64,000 bases of DNA from Treponema sp. J25. Its GTDB lineage: Bacteria > Spirochaetota > Spirochaetia > Treponematales > Breznakiellaceae. Made by a program: the position numbers and the translations under genes. The stretch is from assembly GCF_004343725.1 (NCBI RefSeq), contig NZ_PTQW01000003.1:1-64000 (forward strand). The letters run 5' to 3'. Positions 2,582-31,780 of the stretch are shown piece after piece (the stretch's first letter is position 1; every line of letters begins with the position of its first letter). Under the pieces are notes generated by a model that saw only the letters and a program-made list of their open reading frames with translations, did not search any database and had not been told where the DNA came from.

Positions 2582-3940
2582 GTGTTCCACGAGCTTGATG
2601 AGGCAGCTCGCGCCTGTCCGTGGTGTGCGAGGGAACGGCCGGTCATCGGGGAAGAGCGGAGCGAAGAGGTAGAGATTATCCCTGCGAAGGTGGTAGTGAA
2701 GGTGCATGTGCGGCGGAAGTACGGCCCCTGCACCTGCGACGACTTCATCGGCCACGACGAACCGGCCATTGTCAGCGCACCGGCGCCAGCGAAGATAGCG
2801 AAGGGGAGCCAGTATGCCAACAGCACGGCGGCGTTCATCATCGTGAGTAAGTATGTGGATGGGCTGCCGTTATATCGACAGGAAGGGGCGCTCCAGCGGC
2901 TCGGGCTTGAGCTGGGTCGGGGGACCATGGCCCGGATGATTCTGCGGGTGAGTGAGGAACTGGAGCCGCTGTGGCGGCGGATGAAGGAGGACCTGCGGTC
3001 GTCGCCGGTCCTGGGGATGGATGAGACGGTGACGCAGGTGCTGCATGAGCCAGAGCGGCCTGCGACAAGTCAATCCCGGATGTGGGTTGCCCGGGGCTTC
3101 AAAGAGGGGCCTGGGTCGACGGACCCACCTCGCCCCATCATCTGGTTTGAGTATGCCGACTCTCGTTCGGGGGATGTGGCGGCGTCTATCATCGGGAACT
3201 TCTCAGGGTACCTGCAGACCGACGGGTACAGTGGCTACAGCCGCATTGGCCGGCGGCCGGAAATTATTCATGTGGGCTGCTGGGCCCATATCCGGCGGGA
3301 GTTCTATCGGCTCGTGAGTGAGCAGGGGCCCACCTGCACCGCCGCCGAGATGGTACGCCTCATCCGAAGACTCTATCAGATTGAAAAGGATCTGCGTGCT
3401 CGTCTTGCTGCAGGGGAACTTTCCCGGGAGGTCTTTGTGGAGGAACGGAAGGCTGCGACTGCGCCGGTCTTTGAAGAGATTCGCTCGTGGCTTAACCACT
3501 GGGAAACGAAGGTCCCGCCCCATAGTCCCCTGGGGTCTGCCATCGCCTATGCCCTGGGGCAGTATCGCCGGGCGATTCGGTATGTGGACCACTGGCTGCT
3601 TACCCCCGACAACAACCCCGTAGAGAACGCCATTCGCCCCTTTGTGATTGGCCGCAAGAACTGGCTTTTTCATGACTCCGTGCATGGGGCCAAGGCCAGT
3701 GGACGGCTGTATTCCCTCATCGAGACCGCCAAAGCCAACGGCCACGAACCCTATCGCTACCTGTGTCACCTCTTCACTGAGTACGCCCGGGCCTCGGACA
3801 AAAGTGCCGCCCTCGACACCCTCCTGCCGTACACCCTCGCCCCGGCTCCTATTAATCAGCCCCAACGGAGTCATGGCAGCGGGTACTTTTCTGAGAATGA
3901 AATAGTGCTTTGGAATTCTATTTTTAATTCTGGTTTCTGA
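2582..3940 (+). CDS. tnpC: IS66 transposase TnpC, N-terminally truncated
   Basis: The 452 residues retain a zinc-finger-like segment (ACPWCARER, then CTC) and a complete DDE core: Asp in VLGMDETV, Asp in YLQTDGYSGY, Glu in NNPVENAIRP followed by IGRKNWLF. The usual N-terminal leucine-zipper/HTH region of about 80-100 residues is missing. The frame is open back to a stop at 2501-2503 and already reads family-like (RRKKAPG) there, so the deletion lies just upstream. The GTG at 2582 is simply the first available start. The stop codon lies 54 nt beyond the right inverted repeat, so the last ~17 residues come from host DNA. The catalytic residues are intact, but activity is doubtful. Confidence 0.85.
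   Translation: MFHELDEAARACPWCARERPVIGEERSEEVEIIPAKVVVKVHVRRKYGPCTCDDFIGHDEPAIVSAPAPAKIAKGSQYANSTAAFIIVSKYVDGLPLYRQEGALQRLGLELGRGTMARMILRVSEELEPLWRRMKEDLRSSPVLGMDETVTQVLHEPERPATSQSRMWVARGFKEGPGSTDPPRPIIWFEYADSRSGDVAASIIGNFSGYLQTDGYSGYSRIGRRPEIIHVGCWAHIRREFYRLVSEQGPTCTAAEMVRLIRRLYQIEKDLRARLAAGELSREVFVEERKAATAPVFEEIRSWLNHWETKVPPHSPLGSAIAYALGQYRRAIRYVDHWLLTPDNNPVENAIRPFVIGRKNWLFHDSVHGAKASGRLYSLIETAKANGHEPYRYLCHLFTEYARASDKSAALDTLLPYTLAPAPINQPQRSHGSGYFSENEIVLWNSIFNSGF
3871..3886 (-). repeat. IS66 right terminal inverted repeat
   Basis: Perfect 16-bp reverse complement of 1785-1800. It lies inside the extended tnpC reading frame. AT-rich host DNA begins directly after it. Confidence 0.85.
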
Positions 3941-5802: not shown

Positions 5803-6708
5803 ATGAAGATAGAAAGCAAGTGTCATTTTTGTCCCCGCTGCGATGGTCAGGGCTGTATCAATGAACTTCCCGGGATGGGAGGGGTTGGTAATAACGAGAA
5901 TTTTATTCTTAACTGTAGTTCCTGGCAAAAGTACTATCCCCTGGTAGAGGAGGATACACCGTCGGTACCTCTCAGACTTGCTCCCATGACGGGGGCAATG
6001 CAAAATGTGGGGTATGGGGAAGAGGCTCCCTTCTATGGGGACCTTATTGGAGTTGCCCTTGTGGCAGGACTTCGACTTTCCATCGGGGATGGCTACCCCG
6101 ATGAAAAACTCCTTTCTGGCATAGGGGCCCTGCGCTCCTATGGGGTCAAGGGGGCGGTGTTCTGTAAACCCTATCCGAACCATCGGATTCTGGAACGGTT
6201 TGAATGGGCCCGGGATGTGGCGGAATACCTGGGGGTGGATATCGATTCCTATGCTATAAAAACCATGCGGGACCTGGTGCACCTGGAGCAAAAGGATGCC
6301 CGGTCTCTCCGGGAATTACAGCGGGCTGCCCATGTTCCCTTCGTGATTAAGGGAATTTTCAAAAAAGAAGATATCGACCTGGTGCGGGAACTGCGTCCCG
6401 ATGTGGCCTTTATATCTAATCATGGAGGACGGGTAGAAACGGTACGGGGTTCTACGGTGGATTTCCTCGCAGTTTACGGAAAGGAACTTCGTCGTTATTG
6501 TGGGGCTCTCTGGGTCGATGGGGGAATCCGGTCTTACCGGGACCTGCAGGTAGCCCGAGTACTCGGTGCCGAGGAGGCCCTGATTGGGCGTCCGGCGGTG
6601 ACTGCCCTATTAAAACAGGGTGTAGCGGGAGCCCCGGCGGTTCTCCAGGACATCCTGGAACCTCTGGAAGAAGAGGTCCCTTGCCTGGAACCTGAAATAT
6701 ATCGCTGA
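5803..6708 (+). CDS. FMN-dependent alpha-hydroxy-acid oxidizing protein
   Basis: This 301-residue protein is shorter than classical lactate oxidases (~350-380). It starts with a four-cysteine cluster (CHFCPRCDGQGC, about residues 7-18) followed by a Gly-rich GMGGVG. The barrel carries the catalytic His/Arg motif SNHGGR at about residue 206 and the FMN-phosphate region DGGIRSYRDL, then GRPAVTALL. Family members oxidise 2-hydroxy acids using FMN; the Cys-cluster subgroup occurs in anaerobes and its substrate is not established. The Cys motif could bind zinc or an Fe-S cluster. The ATG has an AGGTAG box just upstream. The region 5582-5802 holds the divergent promoter area and short GTGTATA repeats but no other gene. 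Confidence 0.88.
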   Translation: MKIESKCHFCPRCDGQGCINELPGMGGVGNNENFILNCSSWQKYYPLVEEDTPSVPLRLAPMTGAMQNVGYGEEAPFYGDLIGVALVAGLRLSIGDGYPDEKLLSGIGALRSYGVKGAVFCKPYPNHRILERFEWARDVAEYLGVDIDSYAIKTMRDLVHLEQKDARSLRELQRAAHVPFVIKGIFKKEDIDLVRELRPDVAFISNHGGRVETVRGSTVDFLAVYGKELRRYCGALWVDGGIRSYRDLQVARVLGAEEALIGRPAVTALLKQGVAGAPAVLQDILEPLEEEVPCLEPEIYR

Positions 6709-20361: not shown

Positions 20362-22020
20362 ATGAATGCCATTGCCATTCTTTTTGCGGGGAACATCACT
20401 CCCTATGCTTTTGAACCGTTAGAAAACCGAAACCAAGGGGAGAAGCCTGAAGAAAAAAAACTCCCCCCCGAGGGTTCTGAAAAACCGGGGACCTCCCTTG
20501 CCCCTTCTGTTCATGGTAACTCCTCTGTTTCGGCCCTGGAACAAACCCTCGAGCGGGTAAGCCGCTTTCCCTTTTGTGTGAAAATCGCCCTGCTCTGTAG
20601 AGAGGCGGATGTTTCTTCCATTCAAAAGGTCCTGAGCCGTTGCGACCTCCCTGTGCCGGTCACGGTACAAGCGGCAGCAACCTGGGACCTGGGATCCCTC
20701 TTAGATCAGATGATAGGGCTTTCCCAGGGGATGGATGCCCTCTATTATGCCTGGGCGGATACGCCCTTTATAGATCCCCAACTGGCGGCTTCCATGATTG
20801 AGCGGCACCGGAAATACCGGGCCGAATACACCAATAGCGATGGCTGGCCCTCTGGGCTGGCGCCGGAAATCATAGCTCCCGGGATACTCCCTGTACTGCG
20901 GGCCCTGTTAAAAGAGGAAAAACTCCCCGTCGAACGGGATAGCCTTTTCCTGGTGTTCCAGCGGGATATCAATGCCTTTGATATCGAAACGGAAATCTCG
21001 CCCGTAGACCTCCGGCCCTATCGGCTCAGCCTTTCGGCGGATACCAAACGCAATTATGTTTTGCTGCAGTCCCTGAGTGCGGCGGGACTTACCGGTGCAG
21101 CGGGAATAGAGGATCTGCTTATCAGAGAGGGGGAACACCTGCGGACCCTTCCTGCCTTTTACAGTATTCAGATTACCCGGCACTGTCCCCAGGAATGCCG
21201 CCTCTGCCCGTACCCCCGCCTGGGGAAGCGCCGGGGTGAGCCCATTACGGCTCAACATGAATCCATGGGACTGGAGCAGTTTACGGCCCTGCTAGACCGG
21301 ATAGTTGCCTTTAGCGATGATGCGTATATCGATATTTCCTTATGGGGAGAGCCCGCCTCTCATCCTCAGATTAAAGACCTTATCCAGGCTATTTTGGATC
21401 GACCTTCCCTGAGTGGTATTATCGAAACCAGTGGTATTGGGTGGGATCCAGCTTTTTTCCCCTCCCTTCGTAGGCAACTGGAACAGGCCGCTCCGCGGCC
21501 CTTAGGAAGAAAGCCCCTGTATTTTATTCTTTCGTTGGATTCTCAGGACCCTGCCCGTTATCAGGAACTCCGGGGGCCTGGTTATGAGGAAGCCCAGGAA
21601 CGGGCCCACCAGGTGCTGGAGCTTTTTCCTGAGGTTACCTACTTCCAGGCCCTTCGCATTCAGGGAAACGAGGATGATATCGAAAGGTTCTATCGGTATT
21701 GGAAAGATAAGGGGGGCCAGGTAATTATTCAAAAGTATGATTATTTTTGTGGGTACCTGGAACAAAAACGGGCAGGGGACATTTCTCCGTTGGTACGGCG
21801 GCCCTGTTGGCACCTTATGCGGGATATGCATATTTTGATAGATGGGGCGGTGCCGCTGTGTCGAGAAAGTATCGATCCTCCCCTGGTGCTGGGGAATGTG
21901 TTTCAAGAAGGTCTTGCAGAAATCTGGGAACGGGGAAATACCGTGTACCGACAACACCTTAAGGGATCCTATACGGGGATATGTAAGGACTGCGATGAGT
22001 ACTATACCTACAACTTTTAA
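20362..22020 (+). CDS. Spiro-SPASM radical SAM protein with nucleotidyltransferase-like N-terminus
   Basis: The 552 residues have two parts. The first ~250 resemble a nucleotidyltransferase-type alpha/beta domain (ALEQTLERVSRFPFCVKIAL, then DALYYAWADTPFIDPQLAASM). The radical SAM core begins at about 270 with CPQECRLCPYPR (Cx3Cx2C binding the 4Fe-4S cluster), followed by DISLWGEP. The C-terminal SPASM region has further cysteines (RRPCWHL, PLCRES, CKDCDEYY) for an auxiliary cluster. I recognise this architecture as the spirochaete-specific spiro-SPASM family, whose reaction is unknown. It is the first gene of a five-gene cluster with sugar-nucleotide enzymes, which points to radical modification of a sugar, lipid or peptide. 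An N-terminal low-complexity stretch lies at residues 25-60. Confidence 0.85.
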   Translation: MNAIAILFAGNITPYAFEPLENRNQGEKPEEKKLPPEGSEKPGTSLAPSVHGNSSVSALEQTLERVSRFPFCVKIALLCREADVSSIQKVLSRCDLPVPVTVQAAATWDLGSLLDQMIGLSQGMDALYYAWADTPFIDPQLAASMIERHRKYRAEYTNSDGWPSGLAPEIIAPGILPVLRALLKEEKLPVERDSLFLVFQRDINAFDIETEISPVDLRPYRLSLSADTKRNYVLLQSLSAAGLTGAAGIEDLLIREGEHLRTLPAFYSIQITRHCPQECRLCPYPRLGKRRGEPITAQHESMGLEQFTALLDRIVAFSDDAYIDISLWGEPASHPQIKDLIQAILDRPSLSGIIETSGIGWDPAFFPSLRRQLEQAAPRPLGRKPLYFILSLDSQDPARYQELRGPGYEEAQERAHQVLELFPEVTYFQALRIQGNEDDIERFYRYWKDKGGQVIIQKYDYFCGYLEQKRAGDISPLVRRPCWHLMRDMHILIDGAVPLCRESIDPPLVLGNVFQEGLAEIWERGNTVYRQHLKGSYTGICKDCDEYYTYNF

Positions 22021-22984
22021 CGACGAACCTCCACCCTATACCGTATTGGGGGGGCAGGAAATTCTTGAACGAACCGGGGTAAGCGCGGTGTTACTCCAGC
22101 GGGGGGGGCGCTACATTCGCCGCCTTGTGTTCCAGGAACTACAGGAAGCGGGTTTTGAACAGGTGGTCCTGCTCGAAAATTCCCGCGCTTCCCCTGAACT
22201 GGAAGAACTGCTCCATCGTTTCCCCTTTGTTCGCTGTGTCCTTCCCCAAAAAGAGCTTACTCTGGGAGAACAGATCAATCTTGCTGTCCGGGAAGTAAAA
22301 ACGCCCCTCTTCCTTGTCCTGTGGAGCGATACCCATTTTTCCCAAAAAGGAGGGGCCCTGAGGATCGCTGAACGGTGGGCCCACCATTACCTGGTTCCGC
22401 GGGGAGAAGGTGAAACACCAGAGACACCTCTCTGTCTTGTTCCTCTTGTTCAGAATAATCGGTACGAGATTATTCCTACCGTCATGGTCCCCACTTTTTA
22501 CAAGGGTCGCATCCATACCATTCCGGTGGTTCCTAAAAAGGAGGGAGTTCCGTCTCTTTTCCCTTTTGATGGGATAGGGGTGTATAATCGGGATGCCTTT
22601 GTTTCTCTGGGGGGCTATGATGGGACCATTCACAATCCCTACTGGCAGCTTATGGATTTTGGGTTTCGAGCCCATCTGTGGGGGGAGCGGATCCTTGCAA
22701 CCCAAACGATCCGCATTCACTACGATCAGGATCCACCCACGGTGCATACGACCGCCCAAGATAGTTATCTGCGCTTTTATTTAAAGAATATCGCCCCCCA
22801 GTTTCGCAGCGATCATGCCCATCTTCCCTATAGCAGGCTTTTCGAATTCCTAGTAAAGAGCGGAAAAAGCCTTCGGGAAGGGTGGGAATTGTTTCGAGAA
22901 ATTCGGCGGTGGGTTTTGCAGTATCGGTATCGATTCACCATGGATGCTCGATTTCTTATCAAGTCATGGGAAGAGGGGGTATGA
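21995..22984 (+). CDS. Glycosyltransferase-like protein
   Basis: A 329-residue protein with a GT-A-like layout: an N-terminal nucleotide-binding region (VLLQRGGRYIRRLVFQELQE), a central segment FLVLWSDTHF that could hold the metal-binding DxH/DxD, and an acceptor region FDGIGVYNRDAFVSLGGYDG as in family 2 glycosyltransferases. YWQLMDFGFRAHLWGERI supplies the W(E)DxxxxxR-like motif. It would transfer a sugar from a nucleotide donor; donor and acceptor are unknown. ATG 21995 has AAGGA 7 nt upstream and overlaps the SPASM gene by 26 nt. An earlier start at 21842 would be an unsupported out-of-frame extension. Confidence 0.72.
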   Translation: MSTIPTTFNDEPPPYTVLGGQEILERTGVSAVLLQRGGRYIRRLVFQELQEAGFEQVVLLENSRASPELEELLHRFPFVRCVLPQKELTLGEQINLAVREVKTPLFLVLWSDTHFSQKGGALRIAERWAHHYLVPRGEGETPETPLCLVPLVQNNRYEIIPTVMVPTFYKGRIHTIPVVPKKEGVPSLFPFDGIGVYNRDAFVSLGGYDGTIHNPYWQLMDFGFRAHLWGERILATQTIRIHYDQDPPTVHTTAQDSYLRFYLKNIAPQFRSDHAHLPYSRLFEFLVKSGKSLREGWELFREIRRWVLQYRYRFTMDARFLIKSWEEGV

Positions 22985-23868
22985 AAAAATCACTTACCAC
23001 GGGGCTTATCCTGCAGGCCCGCATCGATTCTTCCCGGTTGCCCCGAAAAGCCCTGTTAGATTTAGGGGACAAACCGCTTATCTTTCGGGTGATGGAAGCC
23101 CTCCTGCATGTGCCGGTGGAATATCATATTCTTGCCTGCCCTGCTGATGCGGTAGAAGCCTTTCGTCCCCTTGCAAAGGATGCGGGCTTTCACCTTTTTG
23201 TGGGAGATAAGGAAAATGTCCTATCCCGCTATGTGGGGGCTGCCCGGGCCTTTGATCTTGATATTATTGTGCGGGCCACAGGGGATAACCCCTTCGTGTT
23301 TAGCGATGGGGCTACGCGATTGCTGTATGAGACGATGCGCTGTGGGGCCGATTATGGGGCCTATGGAGGACTTCCCTATGGGGCTGGGGTAGAAGTTGTC
23401 CGGCGAGAGGCCCTGGAACGGGCCCTCCGGGAGGCAGAAACGGCCTATGATCGGGAACATGTCTGTCCCTATCTGTATACCCACCCGGAGTTTTTTTATC
23501 TTCACCGCCCGCTGGCTCCCCGCCTATGGCGCGATTCCCAGCTTCGCCTTACGGTGGATACCCAGGCCGATTATGAATGGGCCCGGATTCTCTATGAAGC
23601 CCTGTCTCAGGATCCTCTGGTGCAACAAAAAACGGAACTGCGGTATACGGGTAAGGTGATTCGCCGGGTTGCCCGGTTTTTAGATTCTGGAGATTCCTCC
23701 GCAGGGAAGTTCTCCCTATCTGATGCCTCGGTGCAAGGCGCTTGCGAAAACGGAGGGACGCCCTTTAAAAAGGCAGAATCGGCTCCTGAACTCCCCGAGG
23801 GACAAAGGTCTGGGGGCCTGGATAAACCGGTGGTTCCTTCTTCCGCAGGGCAGAGGGGGGCTTTATGA
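22981..23868 (+). CDS. SpsF-like cytidylyltransferase (nonulosonate-type activator)
   Basis: The N-terminus LILQARIDSSRLPRKALLDL is the CMP-sugar synthetase signature in its SpsF form, followed by DKPLIFRVMEALL. RATGDNPF is the nucleotide/metal Asp motif, and RLTVDTQADYEWAR is the conserved C-terminal block. SpsF-like enzymes activate acidic sugars with CTP before transfer to surface polysaccharide or protein. The ~60 residues after the catalytic domain are a Gly/Ser/Pro-rich tail with no recognisable fold. The start overlaps the previous stop by ATGA and the end overlaps the next start by 4 nt, so translational coupling is strong throughout. Confidence 0.85.
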   Translation: MKKSLTTGLILQARIDSSRLPRKALLDLGDKPLIFRVMEALLHVPVEYHILACPADAVEAFRPLAKDAGFHLFVGDKENVLSRYVGAARAFDLDIIVRATGDNPFVFSDGATRLLYETMRCGADYGAYGGLPYGAGVEVVRREALERALREAETAYDREHVCPYLYTHPEFFYLHRPLAPRLWRDSQLRLTVDTQADYEWARILYEALSQDPLVQQKTELRYTGKVIRRVARFLDSGDSSAGKFSLSDASVQGACENGGTPFKKAESAPELPEGQRSGGLDKPVVPSSAGQRGAL

Positions 23869-25982
23869 ATGATGCGCCCTTGCCCCGGTTGCTGGTCGTT
23901 CCCACCCAGGAAAAAGGAAGGGGGGGAGGCCACCTTATGCGGTGTATCCAGGTAGTGGAGGACCTCCGAAAAAGGGGCCTTGAGGTCTATCTCTATGACG
24001 CTCCCTCGGAGGTTTCCTCTCTTGCTCCCCTGGATCCTTTTTCTACAACCTGGAGCGCCATCATTCTGGATAGGTTTCAGACAAAGAAAGCAGAACTTTC
24101 CTTTTGGCGCCAATGGGGGCCGGTAGTAGGGCTTGATGAGGGAGGGCCCTGCCGGGCTTCCTTCGATTATCTCATCGATATTATTCCGTCCCTGCCTCCC
24201 CGGATTCCGCCCAACCTCTTTTTCCCGCAGGCCCTCGGTGTTCCTGATATACGACGTTCCAACTGGCCTGAACAGGCTCCACCCTCTCTTCGGATGTTGG
24301 TAACCTTTGGGGCAGAGGACCCCCGGGCCCTTTCGGTGCCGGTGGCCCGTCTGCTTCTTGCATCCCGCTGGGGCTCGGTGACCATCGTAGTTGGTCCCCG
24401 GAATCGGCAAGGGGTAGAGAATATACGGCAGGAATTTCCCGATGGAAAGGTGGAAATTCTCTCTGCCCCGAATAACCTTAAGGAACTGCTTGCGGATTAT
24501 GATCTCGTATTCACCCATTACGGCCTTACCGCCTATGAGACGCTCTTCGCCCGGGTGCCGGTGTTGCTTCTTAATCCTACCCCTTACCACCATCGCCTTG
24601 CCCGGTGGTATGGCTTTTATTCCCTGGGGGTAGGGAAAGGGGCCCTCCGTCGGTTGAACTCCCTGGTGCGGGTTTCAGAGAGAGGGCGCTTTTTCTCCCT
24701 CTTTTCTCAAAGTGAAAAGGGGCGCCCTTCTGTTTCGACCCCCTTTCCCCAATCTTTCTCGACAACGGAGGTCCCGGCGAGGGATGCCCTGTATCGTAAG
24801 GTGTGCACCGCTTCCCGAAGGGTTCTTGAGCGCTGTACAGCCCCTGCAGGTGAGGGACAAGCAGTTTCCTCTGAGGTTGCCCTTCCCGAAGCTGAGCCAC
24901 CATCTCCCCGTTCCCTCGCCGATCTACTCAGCCGCTGGGTGTTCCCGGGAAAGGGGCGGTGCCCCCTCTGTGGTGGCCATCCTTCTCCAGGGGCCCGGGC
25001 ACTGGCCCGCTTCCCCGATCGAACCTATTTCCGCTGTGCCTTCTGCGGTATGACCTACATGGTGCGTCCGCAATCTCCGGCGATTCACTACGATGGGGCC
25101 TACTTTGGGGAAGAATACAAAAAGCAGTATGGCAGGACCTATTTAGAAGATTTTCCGCATCTCAAAAACATGGCCCGGGCCCGTCTTAACCAGATTATCC
25201 TTCTTTTAGAGAGATCCCCGAGAAAAGTGGGGCTGGGAAAGGAGCCTCGGGAAGAGGCGACGATGGAGAAAACGAAGGGAGACGGGGGAAACCCGTCTCG
25301 AGGGAAGTCTGGGTCGGTCATCCCCTCAGAACAGCGTCCTAAAGGGCCCACCCTTCTTGATATTGGCTGCGCCTATGGGCCCTTCTTAGATGCGGCCCGG
25401 GAAGAGGGCTTTACCTGTTTTGGTATGGACCCCTCATCGGATGGTATTGACTATGTCCAGCACACCCTGGGTATCCCCGCGGCCCGGGCCTTTTTCCCCC
25501 AGGAGGATCCCCGTCGCCTCTTCGGTTGTCCCTCCTTTGATGTGATCACCCTCTGGTATGTGATAGAACATTTCCCCAATCTTAAGGAAGTACTTTCCCA
25601 GATCAACGCCTGTTTACCCATTGGGGGAGTGTTCGCCTTTTCAACCCCCTCCCTGTCGGGTATTTCGGGGCGTACCAACCTCTCTCGTTTTCTCGAAAGG
25701 AGCCCCGCCGACCACTGGACCCTCTGGGACCCCCGGGAAACGGCGGCCTTCCTTGCCCGTTTTGGGTTTAAACTGGTTACAATCCAGAGTACGGGACATC
25801 ATCCGGAACGCTTCCCCTGGCTCGGACCGGTGGCGGAACAGTCCCTTCCGGGGGCGAAGAATGATAAGGGTGGGCGGGCAAGCTGGGTCTATCGATTCTT
25901 ACTGAAGACGAGTCGGGTATTGCGTTTAGGGGATACCTTTGAAGCCTATGCGATTAAAATTCGACATCTTGATAACCGATGA
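23865..25982 (+). CDS. SpsG/PseG-like protein fused to SAM methyltransferase
   Basis: At 705 residues this is a two-domain fusion. Residues 1-~260 match SpsG/PseG, nucleotide-sugar hydrolases or glycosyltransferases of GT-B fold (GGGHLMRCIQVVEDLRKRG, with the catalytic-type His, then LVFTHYGLTAYETLFARVPV). A spacer (about 265-345) is low complexity. A zinc-ribbon-like segment follows (CPLCGG, then FRCAFCGMTY). From about 497 comes a class I methyltransferase: TLLDIGCAYGPFLDA binds SAM, and LWYVIEHFPNL and GGVFAFSTPSL are later motifs. PseG releases UDP from an intermediate of pseudaminic-type sugars. The fused methyltransferase suggests an O- or N-methylated nonulosonate or its precursor. A further Gly/Lys-rich insertion lies at about 458-492. 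Confidence 0.85.
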   Translation: MNDAPLPRLLVVPTQEKGRGGGHLMRCIQVVEDLRKRGLEVYLYDAPSEVSSLAPLDPFSTTWSAIILDRFQTKKAELSFWRQWGPVVGLDEGGPCRASFDYLIDIIPSLPPRIPPNLFFPQALGVPDIRRSNWPEQAPPSLRMLVTFGAEDPRALSVPVARLLLASRWGSVTIVVGPRNRQGVENIRQEFPDGKVEILSAPNNLKELLADYDLVFTHYGLTAYETLFARVPVLLLNPTPYHHRLARWYGFYSLGVGKGALRRLNSLVRVSERGRFFSLFSQSEKGRPSVSTPFPQSFSTTEVPARDALYRKVCTASRRVLERCTAPAGEGQAVSSEVALPEAEPPSPRSLADLLSRWVFPGKGRCPLCGGHPSPGARALARFPDRTYFRCAFCGMTYMVRPQSPAIHYDGAYFGEEYKKQYGRTYLEDFPHLKNMARARLNQIILLLERSPRKVGLGKEPREEATMEKTKGDGGNPSRGKSGSVIPSEQRPKGPTLLDIGCAYGPFLDAAREEGFTCFGMDPSSDGIDYVQHTLGIPAARAFFPQEDPRRLFGCPSFDVITLWYVIEHFPNLKEVLSQINACLPIGGVFAFSTPSLSGISGRTNLSRFLERSPADHWTLWDPRETAAFLARFGFKLVTIQSTGHHPERFPWLGPVAEQSLPGAKNDKGGRASWVYRFLLKTSRVLRLGDTFEAYAIKIRHLDNR

Positions 25983-25993
25983 GGAAAGGTAGC

Positions 25994-27583
25994 ATGAAAC
26001 AGGCACTTTTGATTCTTGGCGCGGGCATCCTGCAGGGCCCCGCCATTCGTCTTGCAAAGGAAGAAGGATTATACACAGTAGTGGTTGATGGAAACCCCCA
26101 GGCTCCCCTGGCAAGCCTGGCCGATCGATTTGAACCGATCGATTTGAAAGATAAGGAGAGGATCCTTGCCTTTGCCCAGAACATTCAGAAAACGATACCT
26201 CTGGCGGGGGTCATGACGGCGGGTACCGATTTTTCTGCTACCGTGGCCTACGTGGCAGAACACCTGGGACTACCGGGCATTCCATATGAGTGTGCTCTGG
26301 ACGCAAGTGACAAAGAACGGATGCGACGGCGCTTTAAAGAGGCCGGGGTGCCTTCGCCGGACTTTGTGGCCCTTACGGAACTGCCTGCCGCCGATTGGGT
26401 TCCCCCCTTCGCTTTTCCCGTGGTGGTAAAACCGGTGGATAACATGGGTGCCCGGGGATGCCGCCGGGCCGATACGGTGACAGAATTGCATGAGGCTATA
26501 AGGGGTGCCTTTCCGTATTCCCGCAGTGGCCGGGTTATCGTAGAGGAATACATGGAAGGTCCCGAATATTCGGTGGATGCCATCGTGTATGAGGGCCGGA
26601 TTACCATCTGTGGCGTGGCGGACCGGCATATTTTTTTTCCCCCCTACTTCATAGAAATGGGGCATACCATGCCTACCGATACGGACCCCGCCCTGGTAGA
26701 ACAACTGATTGCCGTTTTTTCCCGGGGAGTCCGGGCCCTGGGGATTACCCATGGGGCCGCGAAGGGGGATGTAAAGCTCACACCCCGGGGGCCCATGATT
26801 GGGGAAATTGCGGCCCGCCTTTCGGGGGGCTATATGTCGGGCTGGACCTACCCCTACGCATCGGGGGTGGAACCCACCCGGGCGGCCATTCAGGTGGCTA
26901 TTGGCAGGGCCCCAACGAATCTGGAGCCAAAGCGGTACTGGACCAGCGCGGAGCGGGCCTTTATCTCCATTCCCGGTACCATCCGGGAAATCCACGGCAT
27001 CGATGCCGCCCGGGCGGTGCCGAATGTGCGGGATGTTTTCCCTCGGGTTGCTCCGGGAGATACGGTCCAGTTCCCTGAAAACAATGTTACCAAATGCGGC
27101 AATGTAATTTCTGTTGCTCCCGAACGATCTGAGGCCATAGTCGCTGCGGAGAGGGCGGTGCAGCAAATCCTTATTAGGCTCCGTTATCCTGATGAGAGAA
27201 CCGAAGCCTTCTTGCAGGATATGGAAACAAGGAATCCAGGAGAAGTCTGCTTTCCTCCTGATGCCTATTCCCTTTCCCCGGATCTTCTCTCTGCTATCAA
27301 AAGATTACCCGATCCTTCTTCTCTCTGCCCCTCGCCGGAGGGAACCCTGAATCTTCTGGTTGTTCCCGGTCTGTTGGAGACCGCCGCCACTGATTATGTG
27401 GGCCGTTCGCTCCGGGAAGGTCTTGTGGCAGTGGAAGCCTTGACAGGCCTTCGTTTCCGTTTCCGATCATTTACCAATTTTGAGGGGGAAACCTCTGGGG
27501 CTCTGGGGAAGCAATTCTGGCTTTCCTTTGTGCGGGGAGGCTATCAAGGGGCAGTGTATTATCTGGATACTCTCCTAAAGTAG
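25994..27583 (+). CDS. ATP-grasp carboxylate-amine ligase-like protein
   Basis: The 529 residues begin with a pre-ATP-grasp Rossmann segment (LLILGAGILQGPAIRLAKEE). The ATP-grasp domain shows DKERMRRRFKEAGVPSPDF, FPVVVKPVDNMGARGC, VEEYMEGPEYSVDAIV and the metal-binding GEIAARLSGGYMSG. The family joins a carboxylate to an amine or thiol through an acyl-phosphate. The last ~120 residues are an extra domain I do not recognise. ATG 25994 has GAGGAAAGG upstream; an in-frame start at 25979 overlaps the previous gene. As the last gene of the cluster it may attach an amino acid to the sugar made upstream, or make an N-acyl donor. Confidence 0.85.
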   Translation: MKQALLILGAGILQGPAIRLAKEEGLYTVVVDGNPQAPLASLADRFEPIDLKDKERILAFAQNIQKTIPLAGVMTAGTDFSATVAYVAEHLGLPGIPYECALDASDKERMRRRFKEAGVPSPDFVALTELPAADWVPPFAFPVVVKPVDNMGARGCRRADTVTELHEAIRGAFPYSRSGRVIVEEYMEGPEYSVDAIVYEGRITICGVADRHIFFPPYFIEMGHTMPTDTDPALVEQLIAVFSRGVRALGITHGAAKGDVKLTPRGPMIGEIAARLSGGYMSGWTYPYASGVEPTRAAIQVAIGRAPTNLEPKRYWTSAERAFISIPGTIREIHGIDAARAVPNVRDVFPRVAPGDTVQFPENNVTKCGNVISVAPERSEAIVAAERAVQQILIRLRYPDERTEAFLQDMETRNPGEVCFPPDAYSLSPDLLSAIKRLPDPSSLCPSPEGTLNLLVVPGLLETAATDYVGRSLREGLVAVEALTGLRFRFRSFTNFEGETSGALGKQFWLSFVRGGYQGAVYYLDTLLK

Positions 27584-27596
27584 GGAGGAAGACCCC

Positions 27597-28709
27597 ATGG
27601 GTATACCCGCGGATTACCGCAGCGAATGGTCAGGAAAAGGGATGAGCGTCACTATCCTTGTTTGTGTTTTTCTCTTGTTTGTCATTCCTCTTGCCGCTCA
27701 AGAATCTTTTCTTTCTCTTGAAGACACCCTCAGTCGTCTTTCTGCCACGTTTTACTATGACCCTTTAGGAGAAGTGGGGGTACTCGACGTAGCGGGCCAT
27801 CGCTGTGTTTTCCCTCTGTGGGTTTCTCCGGATAGTCTTGTTGCTTCTCCCCTCGTTCCGGTTATTATCGATGGTGCGACGGTTTTTTATGCGGAAGCAC
27901 CGGTCTTCCGGCAGGGTAAGCCCCAGTTCCCTTCCAGCTTTGTGGAAACCCTTCGGCAACGAATAGCCGAGCTTGAAGAAGAAGAAAAAAGCCGGTTTCG
28001 GATTGCGGCCATCGTTATCGACCCGGGACATGGGGGAAAAGACCCTGGTGCGGTAGGGGAACTTATGAAAAATGGAAAGAAGCTTACCCTCCGAGAAAAG
28101 GATATCACCCTTAGGGCGGGGAAGGAACTCTATGGGCTGTTAAAAAAGCAGTATCCCGATAAGCGAATCTTACTTACCCGGGATGAGGATGTGTATGTAA
28201 GCCTGGAAGATCGGGTAGCTATTGCCAATTCGGTTCCTTTAAAAGAGCATGAAGCCATAATGTATGTTTCGCTTCACCTGAACGCTTCTTTTAACAAGAA
28301 TGCCCGGGGCTATGAAGTATGGTACCTTTCGCCTGAGTATCGAAGAAATCTCCTTGATCCCGATCGGTATGGGGATAATAAAGAGATCCTTCCCATTCTT
28401 AATGCCATGTTAGAGGAAGAATTCACCACCGAAAGTATTCTTATTGCGCAGGGCATCCATAAGCGTCTTACCGAGGAAGTGGGAGTGCTCCTCCCCTCTC
28501 GGGGCATAAAGGCGGCCGAATGGTTTGTGGTACGAAACACCCGCATGCCTGCCGTATTGGTAGAATTGGGCTTTATCACTAACCAACAGGACGCATCGTT
28601 GTTGTATGAACAGGAAAGCTTGTCGCGGTTTGTCAAAGCATTGTATAACGGTATTGTAGACTTTACCACTACGTTTGAACGTTCAGGAGGCTTTGTGAAT
28701 CACAAATGA
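27597..28709 (+). CDS. N-acetylmuramoyl-L-alanine amidase (Amidase_3)
   Basis: This 370-residue secreted amidase has a signal peptide-like hydrophobic segment at about residues 16-35 (VTILVCVFLLFVIPLAAQ) with a likely cleavage after Ala. An N-terminal domain of ~110 residues precedes the zinc catalytic domain: AIVIDPGHGGKDPGAVG gives the first His, REKD a Glu, SLHLNAS the second His and VLVELGFITN the catalytic Glu. It cleaves the amide bond between muramic acid and the stem peptide in the periplasm, needed for division or for letting periplasmic flagella pass the wall. It lies 13 nt after the ATP-grasp gene and overlaps the next gene by 4 nt. Confidence 0.92.
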   Translation: MGIPADYRSEWSGKGMSVTILVCVFLLFVIPLAAQESFLSLEDTLSRLSATFYYDPLGEVGVLDVAGHRCVFPLWVSPDSLVASPLVPVIIDGATVFYAEAPVFRQGKPQFPSSFVETLRQRIAELEEEEKSRFRIAAIVIDPGHGGKDPGAVGELMKNGKKLTLREKDITLRAGKELYGLLKKQYPDKRILLTRDEDVYVSLEDRVAIANSVPLKEHEAIMYVSLHLNASFNKNARGYEVWYLSPEYRRNLLDPDRYGDNKEILPILNAMLEEEFTTESILIAQGIHKRLTEEVGVLLPSRGIKAAEWFVVRNTRMPAVLVELGFITNQQDASLLYEQESLSRFVKALYNGIVDFTTTFERSGGFVNHK

Positions 28710-29233
28710 AGAACATAGATATCCCCACTATCCTTACAGAAAAATCCCGGCATTTTTTAAGGGATCCTCGAAAACGTCGTCTCTTATATATCGTAGTTCT
28801 TTTACTGATTGCGCTGTTAAGCATAGGATTTTCCGGAAGAGCCAGGTATCTCGTGGGAGGGTATGTCCCCCCCGGCAAAGAACGGTGGGAAATTCGCTTT
28901 ATTCAGAAACAAGAAACGATGGAGGAAAATTTGCGTCGTTTTGTAGAAGAATCGCTGCTTGGGCTTCAGATTCCGGAAAGCAGTCCCATCTTTCATTCCG
29001 ATACTCAACTTGAAACCGTAATGATTCGGGGCAAGAAGGCCTACATAGGCTTTTCCGCTCCTGCGGCGCTTCCTATTTCGTTTCCCCTCTCTTTTGAAAA
29101 GCGGGCCCGCTTTTTTTGTAGCTTGGTGCTGAAAAACTTCCCCTTTCTTGAAGAAATCAGCCTATTTATTTCTGGAAATGAGGTGTATACCACAAAAGTT
29201 AACGAAAAATTGAGAAAAAGAATTGACAAATAG
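28706..29233 (+). CDS. GerMN-domain-like membrane-anchored protein
   Basis: A 175-residue protein with a basic cytoplasmic start, one transmembrane helix at about residues 25-45 (LLYIVVLLLIALLSIGF), and an extracytoplasmic domain of ~125 residues. The domain has a GerMN-like layout (EENLRRFVEESLLG, then AYIGFSAPAALP and FPFLEEISLFISG). Such domains often accompany amidases and may bind peptidoglycan or regulate it. It overlaps the amidase stop by ATGA, so the two probably work as a pair at the cell wall. The flaA promoter overlaps its 3' end. Confidence 0.7.
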   Translation: MKNIDIPTILTEKSRHFLRDPRKRRLLYIVVLLLIALLSIGFSGRARYLVGGYVPPGKERWEIRFIQKQETMEENLRRFVEESLLGLQIPESSPIFHSDTQLETVMIRGKKAYIGFSAPAALPISFPLSFEKRARFFCSLVLKNFPFLEEISLFISGNEVYTTKVNEKLRKRIDK

Positions 29234-29250
29234 AAAGCATCTCGTATACT
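29223..29250 (+). promoter_or_regulatory. Sigma70-type promoter of flaA
   Basis: TTGACA (29223-29228) is followed after 16 bp by TATACT (29245-29250), about 45 nt before the flaA ATG and overlapping the end of the GerMN gene. A second -10-like TATAAT lies at 29265-29270. Confidence 0.7.
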
Positions 29251-29295: not shown

Positions 29296-30324
29296 ATGAA
29301 ACGGACGTTCATTCTTGTTGCCATCGCGTTGTTTGTGGCGGGAGCCTTGAGTGCCGAGGAAGCCGTTCTTATCGACTTCTCTAAACTAGCGGCGGATATA
29401 CTCCCTAACCAGGACAACGTACCCACCCAGAACCGTGCGACCATGATGGATTTCTCCAACGTGGCCGGCGGCAGCTTCACCGCGGAGCAGAAGAAGCTCA
29501 TGAGGACCTCCCTGGCCCTTGCCAATTGGGATGTTATCCTTGCGTCTTCTTCTCGGACAGTTGCAAACGAGGCAAAAAGTTATGCCCTCGAGGCCCCCTC
29601 TAAACAGTTTGGAAAGGTAATGGGTGTGCGGATCCATTTCCCGCTTGCTCCCTTTAACTCCTGGGCCCGGATTCAGCCTCCCTTTGAAATTCCTGCGTTC
29701 GAGACTATGGCTCAGGTTGCCGATGATGGGACGGTCCAACAGCCCACTGAACAGGATAAGGCCAGCAAGGTAACCCGTTTTGAAAATGGCTATGGGGTGG
29801 TAAAGAATGTAGGGGTGATCAAGTCCCTGGCGGTAAATGTGTATGGACTTAATTTCCCCCATGCCTTGTCGGTAATCCTCATTGATTCAGATGGGAATGA
29901 GAAGATTATCCCCATGGGATATCTTAAGTTTGACGGATGGGGAGAGCTCCGCTGGGATAACCCGCAGTATGTGGAGAATGTCCGGAATCGGGAACTCCGC
30001 TTGTATCCTATTTATCCTAAGTCCACTCCCTTTGTGAAGTTTGGTGGCTTCCTTATTCAGCGGGATGGGGCCCATGAAGGGGGAGACTTCGTGGTATACT
30101 TCAAAGATGTCAAGATGATCTACGATAAGGCTGTCCTTGACACTGAACGGGATATCGATGACGAGGCCCTGTGGAACATTATCCGGGATCGAGAAAATGA
30201 ACGGAAGACCATCGAGATGTCTCGATTCGGCCAGGCCCAGGTACTCCGCTATCTTGAAAGCCAGAAGAAGGCCACGGAGACCGGTTTTACTCCTTCTACA
30301 GGGACGAACCAGCAAAACCAATAA
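29296..30324 (+). CDS. flaA: Flagellar filament outer-layer (sheath) protein FlaA
   Basis: The 342 residues carry a signal peptide (TFILVAIALFVAGALSAEE, cleavage near residue 20). The mature protein has FlaA hallmarks: VMGVRIHFPLAPFNSWARIQ, GVGVIKSLAVNVYGLNFPHA-like segments, and SVILIDSDGNEK. FlaA coats the FlaB core of spirochaete periplasmic flagella and is exported by Sec, hence the signal peptide. AAGGAG lies 8 nt before the ATG. It has its own promoter and a strong terminator, so it is transcribed alone and probably highly. The C-terminal Gln/Thr-rich tail is variable in the family. A paralogue elsewhere in the genome is likely but cannot be seen. Confidence 0.93.
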   Translation: MKRTFILVAIALFVAGALSAEEAVLIDFSKLAADILPNQDNVPTQNRATMMDFSNVAGGSFTAEQKKLMRTSLALANWDVILASSSRTVANEAKSYALEAPSKQFGKVMGVRIHFPLAPFNSWARIQPPFEIPAFETMAQVADDGTVQQPTEQDKASKVTRFENGYGVVKNVGVIKSLAVNVYGLNFPHALSVILIDSDGNEKIIPMGYLKFDGWGELRWDNPQYVENVRNRELRLYPIYPKSTPFVKFGGFLIQRDGAHEGGDFVVYFKDVKMIYDKAVLDTERDIDDEALWNIIRDRENERKTIEMSRFGQAQVLRYLESQKKATETGFTPSTGTNQQNQ

Positions 30325-30424: not shown

Positions 30425-30544
30425 ATGAATAGGCATTTTTCTCTCTTTCCGTAAGTGTCCCGTGAAAACATCAGGGGAAAAACCCCCTCAAGGGGTACTT
30501 TCTATTTGTTGCGAAGCTTTCAATTATCACATAGAATAGGAATT

Positions 30545-31780
30545 ATGATGAAAACTCCTCCGGTTCTTTTGGAATGGGATACTCTCAAGGATAATTTTTT
30601 TCAATTTTATGAACAGCGGCGCCAGGTGACAAGGCTCCTTCAGGAACAATTGGAAGGGGCCTTCCTGCGCTTTTCTCCTCGCCCAACGGTTAAGTCTCGC
30701 ACAAAGGATTTTGAAAGTTTCTATAAAAAGTATGTTCGGTTGATTCAAAATAATTCGGCCTCGTTGCCTAAGATTACCGACCTTATTGGATTGCGGATCG
30801 TATGTACTTTTATTGAAGACGTCCAACTTGTGGAAGATGTCATAAAAAAACTTTTTGTAATTCATGAAATTGAACGGAAGGGTTCCCAGTATTCTTTTAA
30901 AGAATTTGGCTATGAATCCACCCATGTGCTGATTCGAATTCCTGATACTCTGATCCAGGAGTATGGTCCCTTAGGATGCGATGTGGCGGAGATTCAAATT
31001 CGTACTATTTTACAGGACGCCTGGGCAGAGGTGGAACATGAGCTCGTGTATAAAGCTGAGTTTACCCCTTTTGATGAGCCGATGAAACGAAAGCTGGCAG
31101 CGGTGAATGCGAGTCTTTCTCTGGCGGACATTGTTTTCCAGGAAATAAGGGACTATCAGCGCCAATTGAATCGGGAGTTGGATAGGCGGCGAGAAAGTTT
31201 TTATAAAAAAGTAGAGGATGCAACGGATCGGGAAATTTTTAAACAAGAAGAAACGTCCGAACTAAAACCTTCGATGTGGTATTCTTTAGAAGGAAGCCGT
31301 TCGAGGGAATCTCTGGATGATCTCTTATTAGACGCCCTCTATGCCCATAACCAGGGAAATTTTGAGGAAGCGATCGCCCTCTATACCCGTATTATCGAAA
31401 CCTCTCCTCCAGTTACGGTAGCCGCAGTAATCTATAAACATCGGGCGATGGCCTATTTTGCCGAGTCCCGGTACGAAGAGGCTATTCAAGACTTTAGTCG
31501 AGCCCTGGAACTGGACCCCAAGTCCTATAAGGCTGCCTATTTCCGGGGTATCGTATATGCGGTTCTGCAGCGGTTTACCGAAGCGATAGAAGATTACTCC
31601 CGATCCCTTGAGGTAAATCCCTATCAATTTTATGCCCTATATCGGCGATCCCAGGCGTATTATCACCTTGGAGATTATACCCAGGCCCTTTCGGATTGTG
31701 AGGCGGCACTCCGGATCCATCCGGATTCAGAAAAGGCCCAGCGGTTTCGTCAACTCCTGCTAAAAAAGATTGAAACCTAG
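30545..31780 (+). CDS. RelA/SpoT-type synthetase domain with TPR repeats
   Basis: The 411 residues have an N-terminal (p)ppGpp synthetase domain: RPTVKSRTKDFESFYKKY, ITDLIGLRIVCTF, GYESTHVLI and EIQIRTILQDAWAEVEHEL. All conserved blocks of the RelA_SpoT fold are present, and there is no HD hydrolase or TGS domain. After a coiled-coil linker, three or four tetratricopeptide repeats occupy about 280-411 (AIALYTRIIE, AIQDFSRALELDP, AIEDYSRSLEVNP, ALSDCEAALRIHP). Small alarmone synthetases usually lack TPRs, so the repeats may bind a partner that controls synthesis. ATG 30545 has AGGA upstream. It precedes the tRNA-Glu promoter directly. Confidence 0.88.
   Translation: MMKTPPVLLEWDTLKDNFFQFYEQRRQVTRLLQEQLEGAFLRFSPRPTVKSRTKDFESFYKKYVRLIQNNSASLPKITDLIGLRIVCTFIEDVQLVEDVIKKLFVIHEIERKGSQYSFKEFGYESTHVLIRIPDTLIQEYGPLGCDVAEIQIRTILQDAWAEVEHELVYKAEFTPFDEPMKRKLAAVNASLSLADIVFQEIRDYQRQLNRELDRRRESFYKKVEDATDREIFKQEETSELKPSMWYSLEGSRSRESLDDLLLDALYAHNQGNFEEAIALYTRIIETSPPVTVAAVIYKHRAMAYFAESRYEEAIQDFSRALELDPKSYKAAYFRGIVYAVLQRFTEAIEDYSRSLEVNPYQFYALYRRSQAYYHLGDYTQALSDCEAALRIHPDSEKAQRFRQLLLKKIET

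Follow-up and report, generated by a model that had tools for sequence, protein, structure and literature searches.

Treponema sp. J25 carries a run of overlapping genes on the + strand of contig NZ_PTQW01000003.1, within the 64,000-nucleotide stretch analysed here (positions 1 to 64,000; the window). The run begins with the gene for spiro-SPASM, a protein that joins a nucleotidyltransferase-like N-terminal domain to a radical S-adenosylmethionine (SAM) and SPASM half. A sequence-only reading of the locus had described five genes with overlapping or touching ends and proposed that they make a modified acidic sugar for flagella or envelope. All five open reading frames (ORFs) are found at 20362-27583 on the + strand; the spiro-SPASM and glycosyltransferase genes overlap by 26 nt, and 4-nt overlaps of the ATGA type occur at the glycosyltransferase/SpsF, SpsF/SpsG-methyltransferase and SpsG-methyltransferase/ATP-grasp junctions. 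The run does not stop at five genes, however, but goes on via an amidase gene, 13 nt after the ATP-grasp gene, and a small-protein gene, which overlaps the amidase gene by 4 nt, to flaA. As had been read, flaA lies two genes downstream of the cluster; it starts 62 nt past the small-protein gene and has its own promoter-like site at 29223-29250 (11/12 matches). The genes considered are as follows.

20362-22020, +, spiro-SPASM, 552 aa (TIGR04321 560.9 bits; SPASM 36.6 bits)
21995-22984, +, protein of predicted GT-A fold (no Pfam match above cut-off)
22981-23868, +, SpsF-type cytidylyltransferase, candidate synthetase of cytidine monophosphate (CMP)-nonulosonate (PF02348, CTP_transf_3, 106.8 bits)
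23865-25982, +, SpsG/PseG-like domain (residues ~1-270; TIGR03590 38.6 bits) joined to a SAM-dependent methyltransferase (~366-705; Methyltransf_23 86.7 bits)
25979-27583, +, ATP-grasp carboxylate-amine ligase with an L-amino-acid-ligase C-terminal domain (LAL_C2 70.7 bits; ATP-grasp_4 49.4 bits)
27597-28709, +, N-acetylmuramoyl-L-alanine amidase (Amidase_3 161.3 bits)
28706-29233, +, small protein, conserved at this position of the operon (unmatched in Pfam and NCBIfam)
29296-30324, +, FlaA, flagellar filament outer-layer (sheath) protein (PF04620 250.1 bits)
5803-6708, +, flavin mononucleotide (FMN)-dependent 2-hydroxyacid-dehydrogenase-like protein, FMN_dh (~60% identity to an ORF adjoining the cluster in a T. 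pallidum-like genome)

Conservation of the run and its enzymes

TIGR04321 is matched above its cut-off in 227 of 296 Spirochaetota genomes, and the neighbourhood was compared in 80 fetched loci and three further families viewed later. The order spiro-SPASM, glycosyltransferase, SpsF, SpsG-methyltransferase, ATP-grasp, amidase, small protein and flaA recurs throughout the class Spirochaetia, where a divergent xseA often adjoins it, and is conserved far beyond chance across many families. The co-occurrence among relatives on which the sequence-only reading depended is thus borne out. The run is split in two pieces in a few genomes, such as T. denticola-like and T. pallidum-like ones, in which ATP-grasp lies elsewhere; in the Treponemataceae-type family f2, SpsF, SpsG and the methyltransferase form a single ORF. 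Outside Spirochaetia the core consists of spiro-SPASM, SpsF and SpsG without the amidase, spiro-SPASM is solitary in some families, and the ATP-grasp protein is encoded at a separate locus as a fusion to an FMN-dependent dehydrogenase. A scan of IMG/VR gave only one relative, indicating that this is not a phage feature. A search of the accessible literature found no paper on spiro-SPASM, and the description of the TIGR04321 model gives no function. The T. pallidum annotation lists a SPASM protein (TPASS_0285), a methyltransferase (0289), a HAD protein (0290) and an FMN dehydrogenase (0291) (PMC4403809), and the gene order of locus L065, from a 1.1 Mb genome, matches the TPASS_0285-0291 listing (PMC4403809); on a basis that includes this order, the L065-type genome appears to be that of T. 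pallidum or a near relative.

Profile and motif searches confirmed the domains named earlier: an SpsF CMP-sugar synthetase, a PseG/SpsG domain, a methyltransferase, an ATP-grasp domain and a Cx3Cx2C radical SAM motif. SpsF possesses intact QxRxxSxRLxxK and DNP motifs, the signature being invariant in 24/24 homologues, and matches structure 6oew with an E-value of 1e-43. The SpsG domain keeps GxGHxxR in an alignment of homologues and does not reach the PseG equivalog cut-off (38.6 vs 153.55 bits, TIGR03590). The methyltransferase part of the same protein is a strong domain match and holds a CxxC...CxxC segment. The fifth gene encodes an ATP-grasp domain with its conserved loop residues, and its nearest solved relatives are L-amino acid ligases and BacD. 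All tested genomes with spiro-SPASM have an ATP-grasp orthologue (>330 bits), and the tested genomes without spiro-SPASM have none.

The second gene had been called a glycosyltransferase. A GT-A fold is indeed predicted, with polypeptide GalNAc-transferases as the best matches of a fold search (E ~1e-13, TMq ~0.55-0.63), but Pfam support above cut-off is lacking; the position of the metal-binding DxD/DxH motif reads DTH in the window protein and ND or EE in relatives. Its inclusion in a sugar cluster did not survive the comparison of genomes. Borrelia-like loci (L268:7169-10773, L269:7595-11177 and L275:10412-14006) keep the order glycosyltransferase, amidase, small protein and flaA without the sugar genes, and the first three of these genes also survive in one flagellin-less family. 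Because the glycosyltransferase and amidase persist alone in this way, the sugar module is taken to comprise four genes, and the glycosyltransferase to go with the amidase.

Association with flagella and a predicted nonulosonic-acid pathway

Across 60 genomes, spiro-SPASM and flagellin occur together in 41, spiro-SPASM without flagellin in 0, neither in 15 and flagellin alone in four (Fisher p 7e-11, relatedness ignored). This phylogenetic profile supports the flagellar role that had been suggested for the cluster. The 15 flagellin-less genomes belong to families f9 and f12, and ATP-grasp is absent in all five of the flagellin-less genomes tested for it. The four flagellin-only genomes are all Borrelia-like and possess neither spiro-SPASM nor NeuB, and the two tested lack ATP-grasp as well. 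Proximity to flaA, which had served as a pointer to the target, was rejected as evidence that FlaA is modified, since the Borrelia-like flaA neighbourhood persists without the sugar genes; the glycosylated Treponema proteins reported are FlaB core flagellins and not the FlaA sheath, according to the accessible part of Wyss 1998. In Leptospira, putative glycans sit on FlaB1 where core and sheath meet (PMC13144727). Two minus-strand flagellin genes lie just past the window end (G000:C3:64423-64833 and 65566-65976), ~37 kb from the cluster.

The run holds no nonulosonate synthase, and a neuB or pseI gene had been proposed as something to look for elsewhere in the genome. NeuB with a SAF domain was found on another contig (PF03102, 209.9 bits; G000:C17:58436). 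The genome also has genes for a CapD-type dehydratase and a DegT aminotransferase next to each other, and the two are neighbours in T. pallidum-like and other genomes as well. NeuB is present in nearly all spiro-SPASM genomes, the exceptions being mostly incomplete drafts. PseB and PseC equivalogs exceed their cut-offs in 0/16 genomes, which hold CapD-type and DegT-type relatives only. Clustered Pse genes beside NeuB were looked for by eye in the genome of Treponema sp. J25 and in T. pallidum-like and T. denticola-like genomes; none were seen, and the genes are scattered. Downstream of NeuB, ORFs of ~670 aa that are alike by eye and belong to no known family occur in the T. denticola-like genome (L235:10034-12031) and the T. 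pallidum-like genome (L234:10636-12675). Near NeuB in the latter, an ORF at L234:16012-16671 resembles, by eye, an aldolase of 2-keto-3-deoxy-6-phosphogluconate (KDPG); speculatively, its product could be the source of a 2-keto-3-deoxy acid for the acyl group.

The FMN_dh gene of the window is probably linked to the module. Its product possesses an invariant N-terminal CxxCxxC...C. Outside Spirochaetia a homologue of it makes up the C-terminal half of the ATP-grasp protein, a fusion that, by Rosetta-stone reasoning, speaks for FMN_dh and ATP-grasp belonging to one pathway. FMN_dh is present in families f2 and f10 and part of f1, and is missing in several others. An IS66-family transposase lies near the FMN_dh gene (2582-3940). 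Other features of the window are TPR repeats fused to a RelA/SpoT domain (30455-31780) and a RadC-like JAB domain match (PF04002) fused to a DinG-type helicase (PF13307; 32123-34570).

Gene order in the module is conserved, the module occurs together with NeuB and flagellin, and some of its genes are variously fused. Spiro-SPASM, SpsF, SpsG-methyltransferase and ATP-grasp probably constitute a module for activating and decorating the sugar in a nonulosonic-acid pathway that is specific to spirochaetes and has the flagellin core as its target. A 4-amino-sugar bound to uridine diphosphate (UDP) would come from the CapD-type dehydratase and the DegT aminotransferase, SpsG would free the sugar from UDP, NeuB would condense the freed sugar with phosphoenolpyruvate, and SpsF would convert the nonulosonate to its CMP form. 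The methyltransferase would O-methylate a hydroxy acid, the C2 oxidation state of which may be set by the FMN enzyme where present, and the ATP-grasp ligase would couple this acid, through its carboxylate, to a sugar amino group. The predicted product is a glycan like that reported for T. denticola FlaB.

The T. denticola FlaB glycan has a mass of 450.2 Da and is needed for filament assembly (PMC9481697, which cites Kurniyati 2017). Exchanging one acetyl of a nonulosonate residue for C7H12O5 (an O-methylated trihydroxyhexanoyl group) gives a computed mass of 450.185 Da. The acyl group of the T. denticola glycan is reportedly a 2-methoxy-4,5,6-trihydroxyhexanoyl amide at N7, an account attributed to Kurniyati 2017. 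An O-methylated trihydroxyhexanoyl amide would need a methyltransferase, a 2-hydroxyacid-dehydrogenase-like FMN enzyme and a carboxylate-amine ligase. A nonulosonate bearing an O-methylated hydroxy-acid amide would fit both the gene set and the glycan. Campylobacter makes pseudaminic acid (Pse) with a 2,3-di-O-methylglyceroyl amide (PMC3068675). The modified acidic sugar of the sequence-only reading is retained as a nonulosonate whose route is completed by genes elsewhere; a methyl and amide-ligated decoration is reasonable, but an amino-acylated sugar is not favoured over the hydroxy-acid amide.

Several points weigh against this assignment. The scores of PseG, PseB, PseC and NeuB/PseI all lie under the curated equivalog cut-offs, and the exact nonulosonate is not fixed by them. 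Roughly half of the Spirochaetia genomes examined have no FMN_dh, and the correlation with flagellin rests on two or three loss events only. Two flagellin-less genomes have a strong NeuB and no spiro-SPASM, and NeuB must therefore also serve other glycans. The mass match at 450.2 Da is not unique when taken alone.

Spiro-SPASM and the repeated loss of its SAM-cluster cysteines

Spiro-SPASM consists of an N-domain (~1-260), a radical SAM barrel with C275, C279 and C282, and a SPASM region with C482, C500, C541 and C544. The TIGR04321 match is full-length (cut-off 250, model positions 20-510 of 510), and the radical SAM family PF04055 falls below its gathering score (22.8 vs 29.5). An AlphaFold2 model of the window protein (pLDDT 92) matches 6oew in the N-domain (Z 22.3) and SuiB (Z 23.2) and BtrN (Z 21.1) in the radical SAM/SPASM half; profile searches agree (BtrN 1.7e-20, 6oew 3e-7). 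The best match of the N-domain is a spirochaete cytidylyltransferase, and the SpsF signature RxxSxRLxxK is absent from this domain in the window protein, where only an AD-P remnant is seen. Spiro-SPASM probably descends from the fusion of a cytidylyltransferase-fold domain to a radical SAM/SPASM enzyme.

The Cx3Cx2C triad is present in 117/163 aligned spiro-SPASM homologues and absent in 46/163. The four SPASM cysteines are intact in 159/163, the other four being two extraction failures and two proteins with Ser at the last Cys. A hidden alternative Cx3Cx2C was considered and discarded, as none occurs anywhere in the 46 triad-less proteins. On a tree of 80 rows, built with IQ-TREE with the triad columns left out, the triad state changes at least 10 times, or 16 to 21 losses took place if the motif is ancestral and was never regained; long branches meet in the tree and these exact counts are soft. 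Two badly extracted rows (L036 and L060), both triad-less in alignment A1, were omitted from this tree. Several losses are certain, given that triad-less families f44 and f45 nest inside strongly supported triad-bearing groups. The T. pallidum/T. denticola-like genomes (g7, g8) also lack the triad in every sampled case, as does the AT-rich family f24, which appears to be Brachyspira-like. In a protein from the window's own family (L088, genome G138) the motif reads Cx3Cx4C instead (CPAHCDNKFC), which may represent an ongoing loss. Replacement of the radical step by FMN_dh was considered and rejected, as the two show no anticorrelation (triad present/absent 4/8 with FMN_dh and 6/6 without; p 0.68).

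Triad-less proteins keep D216, R218, R221, P264, K458, P476, R487, G495 and the SPASM cysteines at >=95%, which shows that they remain under strong constraint. Since many lineages do without the SAM-cluster cysteines, radical chemistry is not indispensable to the family. The conserved role of spiro-SPASM is more likely non-radical, for example CMP-sugar binding or partnering of SpsF. Radical catalysis is possible in the window protein, where the triad is present, and may consist of oxidation or epimerisation of a nucleotide-bound sugar. We tentatively suggest, at slightly less than even chances, that in many spirochaetes spiro-SPASM is a double pseudoenzyme, its cytidylyltransferase-fold domain lacking the signature and its radical SAM barrel lacking the cluster, whose four-cysteine, probably Fe-S-binding SPASM region acts as a scaffold required for the flagellar glycan, radical activity having been lost repeatedly and serving as optional tailoring elsewhere, including in the window organism.

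Three other explanations were weighed. The nonulosonate of the module could be destined for an envelope polysaccharide or lipid-linked glycan, its flagellar link reflecting shared ancestry and operon position. Nonulosonates are found on many surface glycans, and both the flagellin-less genomes with NeuB and the survival of flaA adjacency without sugar genes are in keeping with such a destination; spiro-SPASM, however, is absent from all flagellin-less genomes tested and ATP-grasp from the five of them tested for it, both are kept in the 1.1 Mb T. pallidum-like genome, and T. denticola is reported to have a flagellin glycan whose mass fits. An envelope target is thus considered unlikely. A peptide substrate is considerably less probable still. 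ATP-grasp, the SPASM protein and the amidase would then act on peptidoglycan or on a peptide resembling ribosomally synthesised and post-translationally modified ones, with the sugar enzymes as mere neighbours, as might be expected from the peptide enzymes SuiB and SkfB among the nearest solved radical SAM folds, from the amidase directly downstream and from the kinship of ATP-grasp to amino-acid ligases. Against this stand the cytidylyltransferase fold of the spiro-SPASM N-domain, the persistence of the amidase where SPASM and ATP-grasp are missing, and the amidase-free core outside Spirochaetia.

It is similarly improbable that spiro-SPASM is a working radical SAM enzyme everywhere, with other ligands holding the first cluster in triad-less proteins. 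GxE (G329, E330) and E355/T356 are mostly conserved in these members and a SAM-like pocket may persist, but no second Cx3Cx2C is available to them, the triad columns drift freely, and H334 falls from 100% to 64%. The module is real and conserved, and is probably devoted to nonulosonate decoration of flagella; most surprising is that the radical SAM cluster has been lost again and again.

Significance and comparison with known systems

These results offer a defined set of genes for glycosylating flagellin in spirochaetes, a process for which no pathway assignment was found in the literature consulted. Filament assembly depends on the glycan in T. denticola, and in Leptospira the glycan appears to link core and sheath; such a role would explain why module genes are retained in a treponeme genome of 1.1 Mb that has shed most biosynthesis. 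Spiro-SPASM is also an uncommon natural case of a protein that persists although its radical SAM domain has lost the defining cluster many times over, making a role of SPASM apart from radical chemistry directly testable.

As in the pseudaminic and legionaminic acid pathways (PseB-PseC-PseH-PseG-PseI-PseF; Bacillus SpsC-SpsG), a dehydratase, an aminotransferase, a PseG-like hydrolase, NeuB and a cytidylyltransferase are all encoded here. Unlike in those pathways, the genes are scattered and score under the Pse equivalog cut-offs, SpsG is fused to a methyltransferase, and the module adds ATP-grasp, spiro-SPASM and FMN_dh. The T. denticola FlaB glycan is known as a structure, with no module assignment found for it in the literature consulted; treponeme genomes carry the same module, and the mass fits a nonulosonate with an acetyl and a C7H12O5 acyl group. 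The di-O-methylglyceroyl pseudaminic acid of C. jejuni is likewise a flagellin nonulosonate to which an O-methylated hydroxy acid is amide-linked, and involves Cj1295 (PMC3068675); Cj1295 has an aminopeptidase-like domain, and the accessible part of that report does not describe ATP-grasp, SPASM or FMN_dh partners. BtrN, BlsE, anSME and SuiB share the barrel and auxiliary-cluster fold with spiro-SPASM, and BtrN and BlsE act on sugar-type substrates; these enzymes, however, possess no cytidylyltransferase domain and depend on the Cx3Cx2C, a motif missing from more than a quarter of the spiro-SPASM proteins sampled.

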